Below are positions 9,110 to 56,400 of a stretch of 64,000 nt of DNA, piece by piece. The stretch is from NCBI GenBank assembly GCA_036480375.1, contig JAZGGI010000026.1:1-64000 (forward strand), written 5' to 3'. The notes beneath the pieces were generated by a model. It had not been told where the DNA came from and searched no databases. It worked only from the letters and a program-made list of their open reading frames with translations. Made by a program: the position numbers and the translations under genes. The number at the start of each line of letters is the position of its first letter. The stretch's first letter is position 1. The stretch comes from Candidatus Zixiibacteriota bacterium (GTDB lineage Bacteria > Zixibacteria > MSB-5A5 > GN15 > JAAZOE01).

Positions 9110-10201
9110 TTAGTTGCAAATGGGTTGAGGCCCGCCTTTAAACACGGCAGCGATTCCGTAAACGGCATCGCCGACATTCAAATACGGATCGCCGTTGGTT
9201 TGGCCGCAACTAGTTACCGGCGGAGGTCCCTGCTTAAATATGTGACTGATCAAATAGACCGGATCTCCGACGTTAAAATAAGTATCCCCATTGGCGTCGC
9301 CGCAGGTACAATCGACAAAATCAACCGTCACGTCGCCGTCATCATAAAAACAGGTCGCTTCATTGCGAATCGTCCTGGGAATAGAATCAATTGATGTTGA
9401 ATCGGCGTATATGGCCGAATCGGGATTGGTCGTGTCGATCCAATCAAGGCAATCCGGCCCATCCCAATTCTGACAGATCCAGTAGCGATAAAAAGTATCA
9501 CACACCAAAACTTCCTCGATCCAGGTCGAATCACATATTGAATAACTCGTAATTACCCCAAACAAATCTCCATGCGGATCGGAGAACATCGTCTCACTCA
9601 AATTGTCGATTATCAGAAGTCCGACAACATTATCGGAGCTGTCGATCGTCTCTGGCTCGGCCCTCATCCGCAATCGAAACAAACATCCCGGATTCGTCCG
9701 CGGCGCGATCCCGGGAACGTATGGCTGACCAAGAGCATCGGCAATAGCCGTAATCTTGATATCCGTCCGATTTTCGGAAACCGATCTCGCGGTTACGTAT
9801 TCCCATCCCGAGATCAAAGTTCCAGCCGTATCGATCGCGCCTGACCTCACGATTGTATCGACGATTAAAGTATCCCTCCATTCAAGGCAAGTGCTCTGAT
9901 CCCACTCGACACAATATTGCGTCGTCGTTCGGTAGCTGGTATCAACCGCATCCGTCCTGAAGTCAAGCAGGTCCGGATTGTTCATAATTATCTTGATCGT
10001 AAATGCGGCCAATGTCTCCTGGTAATTAGTGAACCAAACGCTGACCCACCCGGTTGTATCGCCGGCGGTGACGGTGGTATCGCCTAACGCCAGATAAATC
10101 TCAGGTAACTGCGCCTGAGATGATTCAGTTGAAAAGACCATAACCGCCATCACGACGGCTAAGGCAAGTATTAAAAAACGCGACTGGCAAGTGAAGGACA
10201 T
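9110..10201 (-). CDS. Secreted cohesin-like protein with C-terminal type I dockerin
   Basis: The product has 363 residues with an N-terminal signal peptide (residues 1-30, hydrophobic LILALAVVMAVMVF, cleavage near SSQA). The start ATG follows AAGGAG. Residues 31-290 form an extracellular beta-sandwich resembling a cohesin (LALGDTTVTAGDTTGWVSV), rich in Cys and Trp between about 95 and 260. The C-terminal 65 residues hold two dockerin repeats: CGDANGDTYFNVGDPVYLI and TNGDPYLNVGDAVYGI. Unlike the three proteins to its left, it has no FlgD/T9SS-type sorting domain and ends at the dockerin, like the genes at 24748, 34284 and 53448. Confidence 0.85.
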   Translation of the reverse strand: MSFTCQSRFLILALAVVMAVMVFSTESSQAQLPEIYLALGDTTVTAGDTTGWVSVWFTNYQETLAAFTIKIIMNNPDLLDFRTDAVDTSYRTTTQYCVEWDQSTCLEWRDTLIVDTIVRSGAIDTAGTLISGWEYVTARSVSENRTDIKITAIADALGQPYVPGIAPRTNPGCLFRLRMRAEPETIDSSDNVVGLLIIDNLSETMFSDPHGDLFGVITSYSICDSTWIEEVLVCDTFYRYWICQNWDGPDCLDWIDTTNPDSAIYADSTSIDSIPRTIRNEATCFYDDGDVTVDFVDCTCGDANGDTYFNVGDPVYLISHIFKQGPPPVTSCGQTNGDPYLNVGDAVYGIAAVFKGGPQPICN

Positions 10202-23698: not shown

Positions 23699-23773
23699 CC
23701 TCGTATAATATTTTTTATCTATTGTCCACGCCACAGAGCAAATTATTTTTTTATTTCATCTCGGAGAGCGAAG

Positions 23774-23924
23774 GGGCTTGTTGAAAAAGTCTTGAAATGA
23801 TCTTCAGCCTAAGGAATGGGAAAACATTTCGAATCGTAAGTTCTTGATACACAGCAGATCACAATTTTGTTTTCACGAAATCAAGACCCACCTCAACTCT
23901 TGGCAGTGGTTTTTCAACACGCCC
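23774..23924 (+). mobile_element. MITE copy A: 151 bp with 15-bp terminal inverted repeats
   Basis: The element begins GGGCTTGTTGAAAAA and ends TTTTTCAACACGCCC, which are inverted repeats with one mismatch. It is flanked by GAAG on both sides (23770-23773 and 23925-23928), a 4-bp target duplication. It has no coding capacity. A second copy of exactly 151 bp lies inverted at 51910-52060, about 95% identical. Confidence 0.85.
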
Positions 23925-24747
23925 GAAGGCGGAAATCCAGAAGAATTATCCACATTTGCATTTTCAAAAATTCCTTTTAATAGTAAACAATAGTTAAGTT
24001 TACAGCGAATTGGGTTCGTTTTGTCCTTTTACAGGCAAAGGCCTGTTTTTGGCTGTTGCGTAGATGACCCGGATTTTTGGCCAAAGATTTGATGCCCGGC
24101 ATGTATCCACATTTGCCGGAAAAATGGGTTTGTTTCCTCAGATTAACGTTTTGGGTCATATCAACTCAATGGTGATTCCGACAGGCGGGGGCCTGTTTTT
24201 TTCCCGTAGGATTCGCTCGCGAGCGACCCGAAGATTCGTTGCGACATATATGGCGGGCTTGTCGCGACGAGCCCTCACTGATAATTGTGTATTTGCAATA
24301 TGTTTCATCTTACATATGAGGATGAATTCCGAAAACACGTTAGATTGGTTGAATAATTGTAAATGCTCTTTGTGGGACCCTACCCGAAAAAATGCGCTTC
24401 GCTTATTTTTCGGTTGGGCCACCGGTCTAAAAGAAATCCGGAACGGAGATATCATTCTTTGCCTCTCTTCGGCTGACCTATAAAAATGAATGAAATACCC
24501 CGGTTTTTCAACAAGCCCTAAAGGCGTTGGGCACCCGGCATTAATGGAGAGCCATTTAGGTATTTTTATTTGTTTTTATTTGGTTTTGTGTAGTTTTGTA
24601 TGTTTTGGCCATGCATAGTCCCAAGTTGGTCACAAAATAAAAAAAGGATCTCAAATGAGGTACTTTGATTCTTCCCATGAAGTAATCTCAATTGTCTGGC
24701 ATATTAACATTTACCGACCATAATTGTCCCCAATAAATCAAAATTCC
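23925..24747. repeat. Repeat-rich gap, family B copy 1 with hairpins
   Basis: No gene is supported. About 24100-24420 matches, in inverted orientation, 33092-33405; a 46-bp block (24120-24165 versus 33325-33370) is identical. Hairpins inside: ACAGGC/GCCTGT at 24031-24046 and again at 24181-24195 (followed by seven T), and a long stem at 24383-24417 with the conserved core GCGCTTCGCTTATTTTTCGG. TTTTTCAACAAGCCC at 24504-24518 is an isolated end of the MITE type, facing the left end of copy A. Confidence 0.75.
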
Positions 24748-27408
24748 CTACTCACACCCCGCACACGGCCCCGGGCCGCCTTTGAAGACGTGGTTTATCA
24801 TGTACACAGCATCGCCGACATTGCATTGACCATCGCAGTTGGAATCGCATGCATCAATCGGGTCTGGTACGGGGCCGCTTTTGAAAATGTGGTTGATGAT
24901 GAAGACGGCGTCCCCGACATTTGTTTCGGTGTCTCCATTGGCGTCGCCGCAGAAATAGGGCGCAAGAATATAAAAGGTTGCCACCTGGCTCCAACCACCG
25001 TACTCGAATCCATCATACGCCAGGGCGCGCCAGAAATAGTCGTTCTCATTCGGTATAGTATCGGGTAGTTCCCAGGTCGTCATTCCGTCGTCGCCCTCCG
25101 GAATACCTGAAGCCTGTACTATCAATTCAGTTAGCAGTTCGTCGTCGTAGACTTCATATGAATATGTCAGGCTATCGCCTTCGTTATCCTGAGAATTGGC
25201 GTGTGACAGGGTAGGCGGATTGTCCTCCAGTTCCTGCATATTATCCGGATCGAGGTTGGTCGGCGATGCAGGTATCGAATTCATCCTGAACTCACTATAG
25301 TACCAGTATGACCAAGTTATCCCATTCGATACTCTCACCCGGTAATAATATGTTGAGCCGTCGCTCAGCGCGGTGCCCGCATAGACTAAACTCGTTTCCG
25401 ATCCTGATATCGGACCGGAATCCCACATTTCCGGCATTGACCAGTCATCATCATTGCTGACCTGGACATGATATTCCTGCTGAACGAATTCTGCATCGGA
25501 ATGACTCCACGATAATTCCGGGGTGTGCTCTGTCATATGTATGGGATCACCCGGCGCGACAGCCAATGATATCGTACTCTGTGGCCGCTGATACGCGAAG
25601 AAATCGAGAATTTTGTCCATAATAATACCCCGCCCCGTCCAACGACTGTCACCGTTGATTATAGCTTCGAAACCAAATCCGAAAAAAATCACCTTATACG
25701 TCCCAAGGTACGATACGGCGCCCGGATTGTCTGCCACAAGATACCGATACTCGTCTACGCCACCATTGATCGCTGCCAGATGATCTGGAGCAACCTGGTT
25801 GGCTGCGCCGCCGGAACCCTGGATATAGATGGAGTCGGAAATATCAAAAACCTGACCTCCTGCAGATGCCAGGATCGGAACAAAGCTTGTTGCGACATAA
25901 CCGGCGTGTAGGTAATCATGCAAAAAAGACTGATCATCCGTGTCAAGCTGCGCGGCAATCCCCTGCCCCGTGAGGAAAAGCTGCCCGCCGGCATCGAGAA
26001 AGCCCTTCATCGCGCTGACTTCATCGTTATCCAGAGGACTGGTTTGGTAATCACCGACGAACCAGATCACAATGTCATAACCGTTCAGATCCTCTGATGA
26101 GGGAGAAGGTGGCGATGACCATATATCATAGGGTATATGGGCTGCCTGAAGACAGGAAATATAGTACCCATCGACACCGCTTCCGCCGTCATCATTTACC
26201 AATAATATCGAGGCAGCTCCGATATTTTTTGCGCCCGCCAAGGTATTAGTTACCGTGCCGGTGTCGCACTGCCAGATAGTTTCGAAATATAATGAATCGA
26301 AACGGGGGATATAATCATTGGGAATTTCAATTATAAAGGGATCGCCTTCATTATCCACTGTATGCCCCTCCAGAACATCACCGATAACTGTCGAGCCATC
26401 GATAATCCGCAAGGCGGCATCATTAGAGAACAGGTTTACTGAAAGATCGACTATTGTATCAACACCCCGATTTGATATTTGGCAAACCAATTCGACCGTT
26501 TCGCCGCCTTCCGGAATGCCATCACCGTCTCCATAGAGATCATCGGAAAATGTGTATCCGTTGAGATGCGTGTAGCCATAAATCGGCAGATAAATGACAT
26601 CATGGTCCCAGTAGATAACAGCAGCCAAAATATTGTTGTGACTGGTGAAATAAATGTCAGTATGACCGTCGAGCCCAGATATTATAAGTTGCGGTCGTTG
26701 ACTGAAAGTGCTGTCGAATCGATAGATCGAATTATTATTATTCGATCCTGGACTGTTACTCGCCATCGTAGAGATATAGTAATTGCCCATATGATCCCTG
26801 GCTATACCATCAAGAGGGGGAAGGGAGGGACTAATAAGAGCTGAAACCGTGGTGTCAGACAGATTAAGAGCCTGAATCGGAAAATTATTGGTCATTGAGG
26901 CCATTATCAAACGATTTCTGAATGGGTCAAAATGAATCCCCAGAGGCGAATTGACTCCTTTGCCTGCATTGGCAAAGACTGAATAGGAATTATCACTGAG
27001 ATCGACGCGATAGATTCTGCTGTTCCTCCAGTCTGTTGCGTAGACGTAGCCCGAAGTGTCTGCAGCCAAACCGTGGCATCCCCCGGCACCTGCGAAATTC
27101 ACGCTCATGAGAGTTGCTCCTGTTGCCAGATCAAGGCCAATCACACCATTGTTGTTCACGGCTACGTAGACAACATCTCCGTCGATAATTATACTGGCGC
27201 AATTGCCCAACCCCGTTTTAAAATAGCTTTGCTCGCCGGCGCTGTTTATTTCGACTACTGTTCCCGATCGCCAATTGGAGACCAGATAACGATTATTCAT
27301 GGAATCAAAAACGATACCTTCAGGTTCGTTAAGAAGACCAACCGAAAGGGTGGGGTTGGCGTAAAAAATTGCCATCAACACGATAATTGCCCGGTAAAAT
27401 GGTAACAT
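24748..27408 (-). CDS. Secreted beta-propeller protein with GATase-like domain and dockerin
   Basis: The ATG at 27408 follows AGGAGGAG. The 886-residue product has a signal peptide (1-23, FYRAIIVLMAIFYANPTLS), an NHL/SMP-30-like beta-propeller (25-275; repeated GIVFDSMNNRYLVSN, GLAADTSGYVYATDW, GIHFDPFRNRLIMAS), a beta-sandwich (280-395), a class I glutamine-amidotransferase-like fold (400-605; NDDGGSGVDGYY, YDIVIWFVGDYQ, GQLFLTGQGIA), fibronectin-III-like modules (610-810), and a C-terminal dockerin (820-886: CGDANGDTETNVGDAVFII and SNCDGQCNVGDAVYMI). No T9SS sorting domain. It probably binds sugars or proteins outside the cell; no enzyme activity can be assigned. Confidence 0.88.
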   Translation of the reverse strand: MLPFYRAIIVLMAIFYANPTLSVGLLNEPEGIVFDSMNNRYLVSNWRSGTVVEINSAGEQSYFKTGLGNCASIIIDGDVVYVAVNNNGVIGLDLATGATLMSVNFAGAGGCHGLAADTSGYVYATDWRNSRIYRVDLSDNSYSVFANAGKGVNSPLGIHFDPFRNRLIMASMTNNFPIQALNLSDTTVSALISPSLPPLDGIARDHMGNYYISTMASNSPGSNNNNSIYRFDSTFSQRPQLIISGLDGHTDIYFTSHNNILAAVIYWDHDVIYLPIYGYTHLNGYTFSDDLYGDGDGIPEGGETVELVCQISNRGVDTIVDLSVNLFSNDAALRIIDGSTVIGDVLEGHTVDNEGDPFIIEIPNDYIPRFDSLYFETIWQCDTGTVTNTLAGAKNIGAASILLVNDDGGSGVDGYYISCLQAAHIPYDIWSSPPSPSSEDLNGYDIVIWFVGDYQTSPLDNDEVSAMKGFLDAGGQLFLTGQGIAAQLDTDDQSFLHDYLHAGYVATSFVPILASAGGQVFDISDSIYIQGSGGAANQVAPDHLAAINGGVDEYRYLVADNPGAVSYLGTYKVIFFGFGFEAIINGDSRWTGRGIIMDKILDFFAYQRPQSTISLAVAPGDPIHMTEHTPELSWSHSDAEFVQQEYHVQVSNDDDWSMPEMWDSGPISGSETSLVYAGTALSDGSTYYYRVRVSNGITWSYWYYSEFRMNSIPASPTNLDPDNMQELEDNPPTLSHANSQDNEGDSLTYSYEVYDDELLTELIVQASGIPEGDDGMTTWELPDTIPNENDYFWRALAYDGFEYGGWSQVATFYILAPYFCGDANGDTETNVGDAVFIINHIFKSGPVPDPIDACDSNCDGQCNVGDAVYMINHVFKGGPGPCAGCE

Positions 27409-32873: not shown

Positions 32874-33708
32874 GTTGTCACCTTATCTGTTTGCAATTTT
32901 CAAAATGACAGGACTCTCCTCAACATTATCCGCTACGAGTAATCGCTTTCTTCATTCGTACAACTCACCCAGACACATTATAATATATTAAAACACAACA
33001 GTAATATGAACATTAAATTAGCCAGGGTGCCCCAAGTCTTCAGACTTGGGAAAGGATAACTTCTACAAATCATCTATCGGCACGATCTGCAGCCCATCCG
33101 AAAAATAAGCGAAGCGCATTTTTTTGGATGGGGTCCCACAAAGAGCATTTACAAATATCCAACCAATCTGATGTATTTTCAGAATTCATCCGCATTAGTA
33201 AGATGGAATATATTGCATATACACAATTGCCCGCAGGGGCTCATCGCGACGATCCCGCATTGTAGGCCAATATTTCCGTGAAAGGCGGAAACACCGAGCG
33301 ACAGCTGAAAACAGGCTTTCGCCTGTTGATATGACCCAAAACGTTAATCTGAGGAAACAAACCCATTTTTCTCATCAGATGTGGACATTTACCGCATACA
33401 GTAAGGAGAATGAAGGGAATACCGTATCAGCCCAAATAATGCAGAGACATCCCTGGGGTTGTCACTACAAAATAAATGACATTTAGGAGCGATGTGGATA
33501 TCGGCCTGTAACTATTCATTTCATGGTTATTTCGTACCCAGCATAACATATCGCTCGCATAACCGCAACACCCCACAACTTTTTGCCTGGCATGCACTTG
33601 AAGGCATGACTGTGGGCCTCAAACATCCGGCATAATAATTGCTAATTCCCAATTAGACAGAAAATTGGATAGTAGCTAACTATCCCGAACAAGAATGTGA
33701 GGCAAAAG
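32874..33708. repeat. Repeat-rich gap, family B copy 2 and a perfect palindrome
   Basis: No gene is supported. CCCAAGTCTTCAGACTTGGG at 33031-33050 is a hairpin with a 9-bp stem. From 33092 to 33405 lies an inverted copy of the 24100-24420 repeat, including the stem with core GCGCTTCGCTTATTTTTCGG (33093-33133, minus strand) and the ACAGGC/GCCTGT hairpin (33311-33326). Confidence 0.75.
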
Positions 33709-34283: not shown

Positions 34284-37200
34284 TTACGGGCAGTTGGCGC
34301 AGGGTTCCGGGCCGTTATTCTGCAAATATTGAATAAGATATAAGGCGTCTCCCACATTAACCGATCCATCACAATTAGCATCGGCTGCTTCCATTGGATC
34401 TGGGGGCGGGCCGCTATTGAATATGAAGTCAATTATATATTGCGGGTCATCACCGTCAACAACACCATCACCGTTGGCATCGCCGCAAATAAAAGTAAGC
34501 TCTTCGATTGTTACTAATCCATCAATCAAAGTCGGGAATATAGATGCACCCGTGGTATCGCCCAATTCGTTTTTATCATAGGCGTCTTCGGCAAACGCTA
34601 TGTTGGTTTCTCCCAAAGGAGCATCGTTTTTCACATCAAGAAATAAACGAATAATCGGTTCCGAATCAGATGAGATTTTGGCGTTCAGGTCCATATCCGG
34701 TAAAAATCTGATTAATATTTCACCTGGTTCGCGGCGCTGAGTTTCTACCACGCCGCCGCTTGAAATATAATTCTGGCAACGATTCAGTAGTTCGTATGCC
34801 AGAGTAATGGTATCACTTTGAGGATCCAAAAATACCGGATTAAATATGGCGGTATCATATATTAATCGAGCCTGCAAACCGCTCACTGTTTCCAAATTAG
34901 AAAATTCAATATTTAGCGGGATATTTTCAGCTCCAGTTGTTGCCGTAAAAGGTGAAATTCTTATCGTATCGTTAATTGATATACTCTCCGGGCCAATGAT
35001 TTCAGAATATATTGTTGATTCCCGGAAACCCTGTTCATAGCAGGGGTCGCAATTCCGATAACTCTCTTCATCTATAATCAGTCTTATCAAATATACAAAG
35101 TCGGCAACAGTCAAAGCGGCATTATCACAATTAACATTTGAATTTATTATGCTTTCCTGTTCATGCCCCTGAAATGCGGAAGTTCCCCACCTAAAATAAT
35201 TAACGAACATGACTGCGTCAGACACTTCGCAATTCAATCCATTAAAATTAATATCGCCGGTATATTCGTTTCCGGTTGAATTAAGGCCATGTTCAAACCA
35301 TATATCGCTCATCTCGAAAAAAAGGCCATTGCTGTAAACATCACAAAACCATACATGCCAAAACTCCTCTATTGTTTCCGGCCTGAGCAAATCATGCGTC
35401 TTGTGAAGAACCACATCCATAATTTCATTCATGCTGATATTCAGGTTATCTTTTACATTATCAGGATGGTGTGGTCTGTCAAGAATTCCCCAATCGATTT
35501 CACCGCTGTAATCATCGACATTGTCGTCATAAATATCCCACAGTATTCCGGCGACAGATGCTTCGCAGCTATCACCCATAGCATTTGCTGAACCCTCCGT
35601 TAGATTATGCGTGACACCTTGCCGTCCCCATTCTCCATTTTCTGAATTAACCCATAACGTATCCTTGAAATTATTGTAGCTGTCATACCATACTTCGCGG
35701 TTTTCACTAAACGAAGCCCAAAAATGGGCGAAACCTTCAAGCGATGCCAGGCCAGGAGGAACTATGAAGTTCCAATAATGTGATTGACTAATATTTAGGT
35801 CAAAAAATCGGTCAAGCAGTTCATATTTGTGAGCCAATTCATGATATATAACGCCGGCGTCATAAGAGTCCGGGTAGGCTAAAGCGGGATCATTAGCAGT
35901 AGATATTCTAAGTGACTGAGCACTTGCACCCGTTTCAACGCTGTCATTTAGGATAGCGGTATGTTTTCCGGGGTACAGACCGGTAACGGAATTCCAAAGC
36001 TTGAAATTATTACGGGCGATATCGGCCACGTAGAAATAATCACTTTTCGAGGTATCTATGCCAATATTGTATAAATTTAAGATACCACATCCCACATTTT
36101 CATTTACGTCAGAATCGTAATAATAAGTTATTTGTCCCGCCAGATCGCTTTTGACCTCAATTGTATCATTATCAGCGAATATCCGAACGGCAATATCCAA
36201 TTCGGTTCCGTCATTATCGGCATACATGTTAAGTACCGGATCGAATTGAAAATATCCCAAATTATTGGTAAATGTCAGCCCATCATCGACCCTGATTCGG
36301 GGCGTGTTGGTCGATAAGTCATAATCCCATAGTTCAACGCGAAAGTACGATAAACTATGATACTGTAAATATGGTTGTCCCAATTCCCAATAATTTATCC
36401 GGCCGCTGACAGTTACTGTGGGACTGTCTTCACCCCAGACCCAGACGTTGTCGAGAAAAACCCCATTCTCGGAAGTGACAATATTATGAGAAACGAATTT
36501 GAAACAAAAATCCAGCGAATCCTCACCCTGGGGATTATCAATTTGAAAAGTGTAGATCTTCCATCCATAATCATTATCAGGGAAACGCCATGAGTCACCA
36601 AAATGTACAGCCGCGCTTGTCCATTCCTCTCCCAATTTATACCAGAAGAAACAATTGTCGTATTCATAAGGAAGATTTGATGCCAGTTCATGATTAATGC
36701 AATATGAAATGTAAACGCGCAATTGTTCGCCGACATAAATTTGTTCGGCGAGCAAAAGCGGCGATTCAATATTGTGCGTGTATTGACTGCATTGATTGTA
36801 TCCGGCGGCCCAGGCATATCTATATCCACCGTCGCAGGGATTTTCATTGGGGCACTCTTCAATTTTCCATATATGTATGCCGTTTAATGGATTTAAATCA
36901 TCCGTAATCCATGAATTTCCCAATGATGAACGTTCAAAATTATCATAAAGCAGATCGCCGCCCGATGACGATTCCTGATTTTCAGGCGGTTCTTCGTCAG
37001 GATCGGAGTATGGCAGTATTTTGATTCCGTTTTCAAGAAGAGTATCCAGTTGTTCGGGAGTCAGAAAAACTTTATAGTGATGTTCTTTGGTAGTTGAGAT
37101 AAGAGAATCAACCTTGCCTTTAGCAAAATCGTAATCTTTGGTAGCGGACAAGTCGAGAATGAATACATCTTTCCGCATCCACTCCCAGTATTCTATCATT

Positions 37201-38020: not shown

Positions 38021-38054
38021 CCTCGAAAAAGCGCTTCACCTATTTTTCGGAGGT
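38021..38054. repeat. Family B hairpin, third divergent copy
   Basis: CCTCGAAAAAGCGCTTCACC followed by TATTTTTCGGAGG matches the core of the repeats at 24383-24417 and 33093-33133 (18 of 20 bases in the loop/stem core), but the outer stem bases differ and still pair (CCTC with GAGG). It lies 30 bp beyond the stop of the leftward lipoprotein gene. Confidence 0.55.
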
Positions 38055-38084
38055 CGTCGCCGAATCAAGACCTGGCGCAACGTT

Positions 38085-51192: not shown

Positions 51193-52163
51193 TTGCCGGA
51201 TGCGCAACAACAAGCTTTGGTGCACCTGTCTGTGATGAAACTAAACATATATTTTCGCGTATTCGTCTATTATAAGTTGACTGGTGTGGCAAGTGAAATC
51301 AGGGAGAATCCGGAAGCGGGGATGGCCTCCGATCTGGACGCCATTGCTCGTGAAGGCGCCCGGCGGATGCTGATTTCAACCCTTGAGGCGGAGGTGATGC
51401 GTAATCTGAAAGCCAGGGGATTGACTGATCCGAAGTTGTTTGTCGGCGACAGCGCCTTGGGTTTGTGGGGAGCCATTGAGACGGTCTATCCGGAAGCGGA
51501 TCATCAGCGCTGCTGGGTCCACAAGATGCGCAATGTGATGGTACACTTTCCGAAGCGATTGCATGCTGAAGTCAAGCGATTGCTCAGGCAGATGTATGAT
51601 GCCACCACCCGGAAACAGGCTGAGACATTCATGCAGCAGTTCCCGGAACTGTATGGCCGCATGTATCCCCGGGCGGTGGAGTGCTCGCTGAAAGATAAGG
51701 ATGCTTTGCTGACCTACTTCGACTATCCGCAGGAACGCTGACTGAGTTTGAAGACGACCAATCCGATCGAGTCGATCTTTGCTACCGTCAAATTGCGAAC
51801 CAATGCCGCTCGACGGATTAAATCACCCCGCTCAGCCTTGTATCTGATCTTTCAGTTAATCATCAGGGCGCAGAAACGATGGCGACGGCTCAATGCCCCC
51901 CACCTGGTGGGGCTTGTTGAAAAACCACCGCCAAGAGTTGCGGCGGGTCTTGATTTCGTGAAAACAAAATTGTGATCTGCTGTGTATCAAGAACTTACGA
52001 TTCGAAATGTTTCCCCATTCCTTAGGCTGAAGATCATTTCAGGACTTTTTCAACATGCCCGGTGACGAAGGTTCTGGAGGGTGTGAAGTTTGAAGATGGT
52101 ATCAAGGATGGTATCGAGGTCAGGAAAATGAAGAACAATCAGACCGAAAAACGCGCTGCTTGA
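51193..52163 (+). pseudogene. IS256 (mutator)-type transposase, degraded
   Basis: Recognisable pieces: DAIAREGARRMLISTLEAEV (N-terminal), LKARGLTDPKLFVGDSALG, then WVHKMRNVMVHFPKRLHAEV and TTNPIESIFATVKLRT, all diagnostic of IS256 transposases. About 200 residues between the first two pieces, including part of the catalytic DDE core, are missing. A TGA at 51739-51741 replaces the conserved Trp before the TTNPIES motif. The 151-bp MITE at 51910-52060 interrupts the gene after LNAPHLV; past it the C-terminus resumes (VTKVLEGVKFEDG, ending KRAA, stop 52161). TTTACACAACTTTTGACAG near 52170-52190 is probably the right end of the IS. Confidence 0.88.
51910..52060 (-). mobile_element. MITE copy B: 151 bp, nested in the IS256 remnant
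   Basis: On the plus strand it begins GGGCTTGTTGAAAAA and ends TTTTTCAACATGCCC. It is flanked by GGTG on both sides (51906-51909 and 52061-52064), a 4-bp target duplication; removing the element and one GGTG restores the transposase reading CTG GTG ACG (Leu-Val-Thr). It is the inverted, about 95% identical partner of the copy at 23774-23924. Confidence 0.9.
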
Positions 52164-53447: not shown

Positions 53448-56400
53448 TTACTTGCATTCGGCGCATGGGGCAGGGCCGGACTTAAATACATGATTAATTA
53501 AATAGACGGCATCACCAACATTACAAGCCAAATCGCAATTAGCATCCCCGGCTTCTATCGGATCGGGAGCCGGGCCACCTTTGAAAATATGATTTATAAT
53601 AAAGACCGCGTCGCCTACATTAATTTGATCGTCCGAATTGGCATCGCCGCAGATAAAATCACACCCATCCGGGATTCCATTCTCATCTATGTCAATATTA
53701 TCATCAAATCCCTCGCACAGATCGCAATCGTCAGGCACACCATCCTCGTCGGTATCAATATTGTCATCATATCCCGGACAAACGTCACAGGAATCACCAA
53801 CCATATCAGAATCCGTGTCGGTTTGATTCGAGTTGTAAACCTCAGGACAATTATCGTCAAGACAATCATTTTCGGGATGTCCCGGGTTCCCATAACCGTC
53901 GCCGTCGGAATCAAAGCAGGTCTGGTTCAAGAGAACCGAGACATTATCTCCGTAACCGTTACTCACCGCGATATCGATATCACCATCATTATCAAGATCG
54001 GCTGCAGCAAGGCGGCGGGGATAAGTGCCGGCCGAATAGGTCACCTGAGGATCGAATGTGCCGGTTCCCGTGTTCAGGAGCACTGAAACATCCCAGGAAT
54101 TCCAATTTTCGCCGGCCAGATCGAGATCACCATCATCATCAAAATCTGCCGCAACTACCTTTTGCACTCCGTCGCCTGCCGGATAGACCGATTGCATTCC
54201 AAAAGTCCCGTTGCCGTTGTTCATAAGCACAGAAATGTTATCGTCATAATGATTTGCAGTAGCAAGATCGAGGTAACCATCGCCATTTAAATCGGCAACG
54301 GTCGCATAATAAGGCCAATCACCCACCGAGTAGGTCACGTGAGCAGCAAATGAGGCATCCCCATTGTTCATGAGAACTGAGACATCGTCAGTGTCTCGGT
54401 TGGCCGTAACCAGATCAAGGTCACCATCGGCATCAAAATCCCCGGCAAAAACGGATGCTACGCCTGGATTCACGGAATAACTTAAATAAGGGCTAAAGGT
54501 ACCATCTCCTTTATTTTTCAGAATTGAGACCTTGTTAGACCAGCAAGCCACCGCTAAATCGAGGTCGCCGTCGGCATCAAGGTCTGCGGCAAAAACTGAT
54601 TCTGGATAACCGTAAACCGGGTATGCCACTTGCGGTGCAAACGTGCCCACCCCATTGTTTAACAGAACAGACACATCAGAGGATGTCATATTTGCCGAAA
54701 CCAAGTCAAGGTCACCGTCGCCATCGAGATCACCGGCAGTGATCGAAGTCGGGTTAACACCGATTGGGTATGCAGATTGGGGGCCAAAGCTGCCCGTCCC
54801 ATCGTTCAGAATGACCGAAACATCGAAGGAGAAGTAATTGGCAGTGGCCAGATCGATATCACCATCACCATCAAGGTCGGCGGCAACGGTTTCAAAGGGG
54901 CCAGAGCCAACGGGGTAAACTATTTGAGGATTGAAACTGCCCAAACCGTTATCGACTGCGGTCGTAAAAGACCAAATATAGCTGCTATTAAGTGATATTC
55001 CCACGGATGATCGTATGTCGGTTGTCAGAACGACCGTTACAACTTCGCCTTCATCAAAATCATGCGTAGGATATAGAGTTGCTGATTTCGTCGCACCATC
55101 ATAGCTGATCACGCCTTGATGCAATCCTGTGTATTCGGCATTCACTACTAATGTGGAGCTATTGATGGTCGTCTCATCCATATCATTGTCAAAAGTAACC
55201 GATATATTGGAAGAGCACGTAACATTCAGCTCATGTTGCGGTGGAGAGTTGGAAACGAGACCGGGTGCATCAAAGTTGGCATCGCCAACATTTTGCTCAA
55301 TGCCAAGAATCGAGACATCGGCTCCACCGTTAGATGATATCTCGACAAAAAAGGAATCAACCCTCGGAATAAATCCAATCGGGATGTCGAAGGTAAAGGG
55401 GTCGGCTGAATTATTAGCTGATCCCCCCGTAGAAATCGTACCCAAGGATGATGAGAAATCGATTAGGATCAGATTGACATCGTTTACTGTCAGCGATGCC
55501 ATTGCCCCTGTCGCCTCTTTCCAATCATTTTGGATATTAAGGATTAGTTCAATCCTCTCCTCTTCTTCCAAAATACCGTCCCCATCGCCATAGGTGGCAT
55601 CGTTAAAAGTGTAATCGGTTAGTATTAGATATGGACGCGACCAGGTCACATCGAAATCCGCAGTCATTACTGAATCGGAAGCGGATATATTCCATGCGGC
55701 CACCTGGGTTGACTGATCAAGATAATCTCGAGAGTTGGGGATTGTCTTGTCATGAAAATGCGGTGATGCACCCCCATTGGGGTAAGGATCGTTTTCGTCT
55801 CCATAATTGTTAGAATTCTGAAGGTCAAACCGGCCGTCAGCCTGTTCCAGAAATACCTGTGGATGCCAATCGTCATTATTACCTGACACATTATCATCGA
55901 TATGCCAGATAATAAGACCCGCTCCGGGTTTCAAGGTGTCGAATCCCATCAATTGCCGATTTTCGACAAGAAAATATTCGTTGCCACCAGTGCCATTATA
56001 CCATAGTCGATATCCTACCGGATTCCATTCAATGGCGGGAATGCTCACATCGGTCTGATTGGCTAAAATATTGATTGGACTAAGCCAGCCCAATTTATAT
56101 TTACTCCAAATGCAAAACTGAGACGGTTTTCTTCCATAATCGTGCCAAATCCCGCCAGACATTGCTGCCCAACAACTGGCACCAAATGATGAACCATCGT
56201 AGTCGTAAAGATCAGGCAACCCAAGAATATGTGCAAACTCATGACAATAAATCCCTATGGATATAAGCCCCTCAACACCATGCGATTCCTCGGGTTGCAC
56301 AGAATACAAATTGATCCAAACCCCATCCTTATATCGCGGGTTTATACCCCACTTATGCGACCAGATTTCACACATATCACCCGTTTCTTCAAATCCTGTT

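Follow-up and report, generated by a model that had tools for sequence, protein, structure and literature searches.

The 151-bp repeat found twice in the window, the 64,000-nt stretch of DNA analysed here, is very probably an IS1182 MITE that prefers hairpins as insertion targets and carries a REP-like hairpin as cargo. At the sequence level, support comes from the ends, duplications, copies and empty sites of the element, from IS1182 parents in relatives, from the hairpin preference of the insertions, and from covariation and RAYT-side occurrences of the internal hairpin.

The 151-bp element and its copies

The element is short and non-coding, with 15-bp terminal inverted repeats and no gene. 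Its two window copies lie in mutually inverted orientation (Table 1) and were described accurately in the initial annotation. The coordinates and lengths are exact, the sequences mismatch at 7/151 positions (95% over 151 nt), and the flanking duplications are GAAG for the 23774 copy and GGTG for the 51910 copy. The end pattern GGGC(T/A) holds as a pattern but is too narrow at its fifth base, which may be T, A or G, the last occurring at one end of the 23774 copy (GGGCGTGTTGAAAAA). The single end reported at 24504-24518 matches the 15-bp ends exactly and adjoins half of a REP-like palindrome (TAAAGGCGTTGGGCACC), as expected of an insertion. Inward of it the sequence differs from the MITE, and a partner end was sought and none found.

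Table 1. Features of the element and its surroundings in the window. R1 is a covariance model built from related hairpins, near-identical copies among them.
Feature	Coordinates	Strand	Basis or remark
MITE copy 1	51910..52060	+	151 bp; reference copy for genome search
Left terminal inverted repeat, copy 1 (GGGCTTGTTGAAAAA)	51910..51924	+	sequence, end-pattern search
Right terminal inverted repeat, copy 1 (GGGCATGTTGAAAAA)	52046..52060	-	sequence, end-pattern search
Target duplication GGTG, left of copy 1	51906..51909	.	single GGTG in empty sites
Target duplication GGTG, right of copy 1	52061..52064	.	sequence
Internal REP-like hairpin, copy 1	51937..51983	+	R1, 52.7 bits, E 2.6e-10
MITE copy 2	23774..23924	-	151 bp; genome search
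Target duplication GAAG, left of copy 2	23770..23773	.	sequence
Target duplication GAAG, right of copy 2	23925..23928	.	sequence
Internal REP-like hairpin, copy 2	23853..23897	-	R1, 40.0 bits
Solitary 15-bp end of truncated element	24504..24518	-	exact match
Half of REP-like palindrome, outside solitary end	24519..24539	+	sequence
Decayed IS256-type transposase (PF00872), interrupted by copy 1	51193..51909	+	in-frame stop already present; frame resumes 52065
3' part of interrupted IS256-type transposase	52065..52154	+	frame reading
Intact palindrome TCCCAAGTC-TGAA-GACTTGGGG	33030..33051	-	paralogous empty target

The proposal of a non-autonomous element is borne out by a search of the whole genome. 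The 151-mer gives 24 matches, ten of which are full length with both ends: the two in the window, two on contig C8, and one each on C3, C36, C28, C49, C38 and C22. The rest includes fragments, and several further copies are interrupted by contig ends. The end pattern, with at most one mismatch allowed, occurs 33 times in the genome against twice for a reversed control and, together with the 24 matches, this shows that the repeat is not a product of chance. All eight full copies outside the window were inspected and a 4-bp duplication flanks each of them except the C28 copy. Two copies are truncated where contigs C35 and C27 end; their flanks would jointly make one interrupted palindrome with the duplication CTTG, and we infer that they belong to a single interrupted site.

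Other repeats are present in the window. A second dispersed repeat of ~250-300 bp has inverted copies at 24119-24419 and 33092-33371 (167 nt at 85% and 47 nt at 100%), and similar sequence (GGTGGCCC...AATAAGCGAAGCG...) occurs in further contigs of the genome (L032, L040). Several large predicted proteins carry dockerin-like repeats at their ends (9138-9305, 24802-24952, 34417-34488 and 53482-53652); the one protein checked, encoded at 24751-27408, matches Dockerin_1.

Insertion into an IS256 gene and empty sites

Copy 1 interrupts an IS256-type transposase gene that was already decayed when it was hit. In silico excision of the copy together with one GGTG reopens the frame. The empty-site comparison suggested in the initial annotation finds the 51910 site uninterrupted within the same genome, in an IS256 transposase on C42 with 94% identity in the 101 bp that span the junction. 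It is likewise uninterrupted in relatives, at 7 loci with IS256 copies, and the empty sites have a single GGTG. The outcome named there as refuting a MITE, an element with neither further copies nor empty sites, is thus the opposite of what is seen. Elsewhere in the window, the intact palindrome listed in Table 1 is of the same type as one filled by a MITE at G000:C22:506, where the target duplication is TGAA.

An IS1182-family parent

A search for the parent with the PF13751 profile covered 98 genomes. Relatives do contain what the initial annotation had proposed to look for, a full-length IS that shares the 15-bp ends, and it belongs to the IS1182 family. L102, L105, L106, L109 and others are full elements of 1410-1437 bp (~1.41 kb) with the ends of the MITE, exactly GGGCTTGTTGAAAAA in L106 and L109. 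Intact parent-type ISs carry duplications of 4 bp as the MITEs do: CAAG in L102, TTTA in L105 and GTTC in L106. Six parent-type transposases score 358-391 bits with NF033551 (IS1182), for which the cut-off is 270, and such transposases also match PF13751, PF05598 and PF01609. They have 415-456 aa and are 56-63% identical to the first one. Of the relatives with this transposase, those that have a name belong mostly to Candidatus Zixiibacteriota or candidate division GN15.

The parent transposase does lie outside the window, as had been stated. The genome's own assembly holds no full-length parent IS and no matching transposase body, only the 3' end of the IS at two contig breaks, where C12 and C16 terminate in an identical 127 bp starting with the 15-bp end. 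A homologue of these 127 bp in G078 (70% identical) codes for the C-terminal end of an IS1182 transposase, and the intact relative of this remnant is L107. The simplest reading of the C12 and C16 ends is a multicopy IS that probably collapsed in assembly.

Several other candidates were rejected. IS1182 fragments on C50, C23 and C35 are only distantly related (28-30% identity), forming another subgroup without these ends, the PF01609 match in the genome is only a fragment of another transposase, and no ORF near the G078 end (L084) is a transposase except the C-terminal remnant. The sequence common to the MITE and the full ISs is limited to the terminal ~15-16 bp, so descent from the IS by internal deletion is unsupported. 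The ends and duplications point to a MITE that would be moved in trans, with an IS1182-family DDE transposase acting on its 15-bp ends.

Hairpins as insertion targets

Judged from their flanks, elements with these ends have a preference for hairpins, and the preference is partial. Flanks were joined with one duplication kept, and eight arm pairs centred on the 4-bp duplication were scored at 29 sites with an exact 4-bp duplication; positions at most 300 bp from the same insertions served as controls. The mean is 4.8/8 arm pairs at the 29 sites versus 2.0 at the controls, and at least 6/8 pairs form at 12/29 sites versus 0.73% of nearby control positions. P values for this preference are only rough, as the binomial assumes independent sites and related copies or shared REP families may violate this. 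Pairing has a sharp maximum with the duplication at the centre and is lower after a one-base shift. A free-offset hairpin score gives a signal weaker than the centred test, yet significant, and folding the targets as DNA agrees with hairpins. Examples are CCCCGGC-TAAA-GCCGGGG on C3, ATCCCCGC-GAAA-GCGGGGAT in G071 and, for the full IS L102, CCCACAG-CAAG-CTGTGGG. At most four arm pairs form at 13/29 sites, both window copies included (2/8 and 4/8), and most insertion sites in G007 and G010 are without a hairpin.

It is quite improbable that this pattern reflects survivorship, with intergenic terminators and REPs serving as harmless sites and the transposase having no preference. The copies are mostly intergenic, where palindromes are common, and part of the insertions fall outside hairpins, both of which suit such an explanation. 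However, the controls come from the immediate neighbourhood of the same insertions, and survivorship fails to explain the exact centring of the pairing on the loop.

The transposase probably prefers an extruded hairpin or cruciform as its target; the ends of the element would be joined across the 4-nt loop and repair would then duplicate the loop, with the stem arms coming to flank the inserted element on either side. At L109, L123 and L006 each flank is one half of a palindrome, but not of the same palindrome as the other flank, and matching duplications are lacking, which suggests recombination between copies.

Many targets are REP-like palindromes of the host, and several are similar to the REPs found on either side of RAYT genes, so that elements and RAYT genes have palindromes in common. 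RAYT genes in G010 (L204) and G007 (L212) are flanked by inverted palindromes of the CCCACAGC-TTG-CTGTGGG type, and one on C39 of the window's genome (L223) by TCCCAAGTC-TAAA-GACTTGGGG; all three genes match NCBIfam REP_Tyr_transpos. Targets at L076 and L292 are similar to repeats with a CGTC tag described in PMC3733652. Individual targets are putative REPs by resemblance unless a RAYT gene adjoins them. At L223 (G000:C39:33500-36629), the RAYT lies between a truncated MITE and the intact palindrome, and another MITE is present at the contig end.

The internal REP-like hairpin

A hairpin makes up the left half of the MITE and consists of a GTT foot, a 10-bp stem, a TTG/TGT internal loop and an inner stem. 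It is an imperfect palindrome, as REPs are, and its stem is conserved with compensatory changes. In the outer stem, 98.1% of cells are paired and 45 cells are changed on both sides (36 distinct versions), a level of covariation reached by 0/500 shuffles. The motif used to collect copies contained the TTG/TGT loop, so that the invariance of this loop is no evidence, whereas the foot and outer pairs were not part of it. The genome contains 44 copies of the hairpin and relatives contain up to 58, within and outside elements with IS1182 ends. Elements of relatives (~160-183 bp) often have two hairpins in inverted orientation and are REPIN-like; the window copies, with a single hairpin each and no inverted pair, are not REPINs. 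A weak R1 match (19.4 bits, E 0.016) also occurs at 38047-38081 of the window, outside any MITE.

The hairpins share several features with the REPs, REPINs and RAYT (TnpA_REP) systems described previously (PMC8266576, PMC3733652, PMC3116915): they are short and dispersed, their 5' foot and a mismatch in the stem are conserved, and they occur singly or as inverted pairs near genes matching NCBIfam REP_Tyr_transpos. In E. coli REPs, too, the foot is conserved, and so is a mismatch that the enzyme needs (PMC8266576). The differences are that the GTAG 5' tetranucleotide is absent, the foot here being GTT followed by G or C with the fourth base pairing with the stem end, and that many copies are enclosed by IS1182-type ends. 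The hairpin is named REP-like rather than REP as it lacks the GTAG tag. It is found beside RAYT genes in two cases only. In G003 (L260), several copies lie on both sides of a RAYT gene matching REP_Tyr_transpos, and in G008 (L201) the hairpin is beside a RAYT 53% identical to that of G003.

These REP features, and the occurrence of the hairpin free of IS1182 ends as well as around or next to RAYT genes, would fit an element moved by a RAYT system through its internal hairpin, with the IS1182-like ends as passengers. Such a reading is highly improbable. Every full copy is bounded by IS1182-type ends, with 4-bp duplications, and ends and duplications of the same kind are seen in full-length IS1182 copies that have no hairpin. 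To our knowledge, no target duplications arise from Y1 transposition of the IS200/IS605 type, and the boundaries and duplications of the element speak against the RAYT as mover. It is scarcely credible that the repeat is not a transposable element but a structured non-coding RNA or a recombining regulatory repeat: the element folds as RNA (z -1.7) and its hairpin covaries, but it has clean 4-bp duplications, an insertion within a transposase gene, ends in common with IS1182 elements and no Rfam match at its position in the window, and the empty sites refute this as a full explanation, although a transcribed hairpin may still function. An integron attC-like sequence or an Rfam-known RNA was considered and set aside, again with no Rfam match at the element.

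Other interiors are found between ends of the same type. L156:337-487 has IS1182-type ends and an AAAA duplication around two inverted GTAG-type hairpins (GTAGGTCCGGC...; GTAGGTGCGGC...), and L122:566-717 has the same ends and the target duplication CTTG around a different widespread palindrome (GCGAGGAGCGAAGCGACG...). The recurrence of the ends with hairpin cargo of the GTT type and of the types at L156 and L122 could be a sign, on balance a doubtful one, that IS1182 MITEs have taken up hairpins more than once, perhaps through recognition of folded DNA by the transposase.

Comparison with known systems

IS1272, a member of the IS1182 family, performs 'IR-replacing' or stem-loop-replacing transposition, in which the target stem-loop is deleted and no duplication arises (PMC5678879). 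The elements described here resemble IS1272 in having an IS1182-family transposase and in targeting inverted repeats of varied sequence that are able to form stem-loops, in this case as a preference (the 12/29 sites with at least 6/8 pairs). They differ in that the stem-loop is not deleted: both arms are kept and the 4-bp loop is duplicated. Loop duplication with retention of the arms appears in PMC5678879 as a hypothetical alternative only (pathway c of Fig. 13). For IS1182 members that target palindromes, the same paper cites Siguier et al. and gives no detail.

ISs that insert into REPs include IS1397, ISKpn1 and ISPsy8 (IS3), ISPpu9/10, ISPa11 and IS621 (IS110), and ISRm22 (called IS4), of which ISPsy8 and ISRm22 enter REPs on the axis of symmetry and duplicate 3 and 6 bp there (PMC1525189). 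REPs as landing sites and recombined copies without matching duplications are common to these ISs and the present elements. However, IS1182 is absent from the five families of PMC1525189, and the targets here vary widely, comprise many REP-like types and are preferred only in part.

Significance

The 151-bp element is a new member among MITEs. The library of papers searched, which does not extend to ISfinder or most subscription journals, contained neither IS1182 MITEs in REPs nor an element in which IS1182 ends go together with REP-loop targets and a REP-like or REPIN-like cargo, and no paper joining the phylum name with insertion sequences and transposases.

The internal hairpin may have been, or may still be, the substrate of a RAYT enzyme. 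A further possibility, tentative and on balance doubtful, is that these are hybrid elements in which a RAYT-type REP or REPIN is locked between IS1182 (DDE) ends, processable in principle by both enzymes and inserting in the loops of other REPs.

The insertions provide many sequence-level examples of loop insertion in which the loop is duplicated and the stem kept, previously only hypothetical for the IS1182 family. Whether these DDE transposases recognise DNA by structure or by sequence thereby becomes directly testable. IS-derived MITEs and RAYT-associated REPs and REPINs, usually studied apart, are here united in one element.
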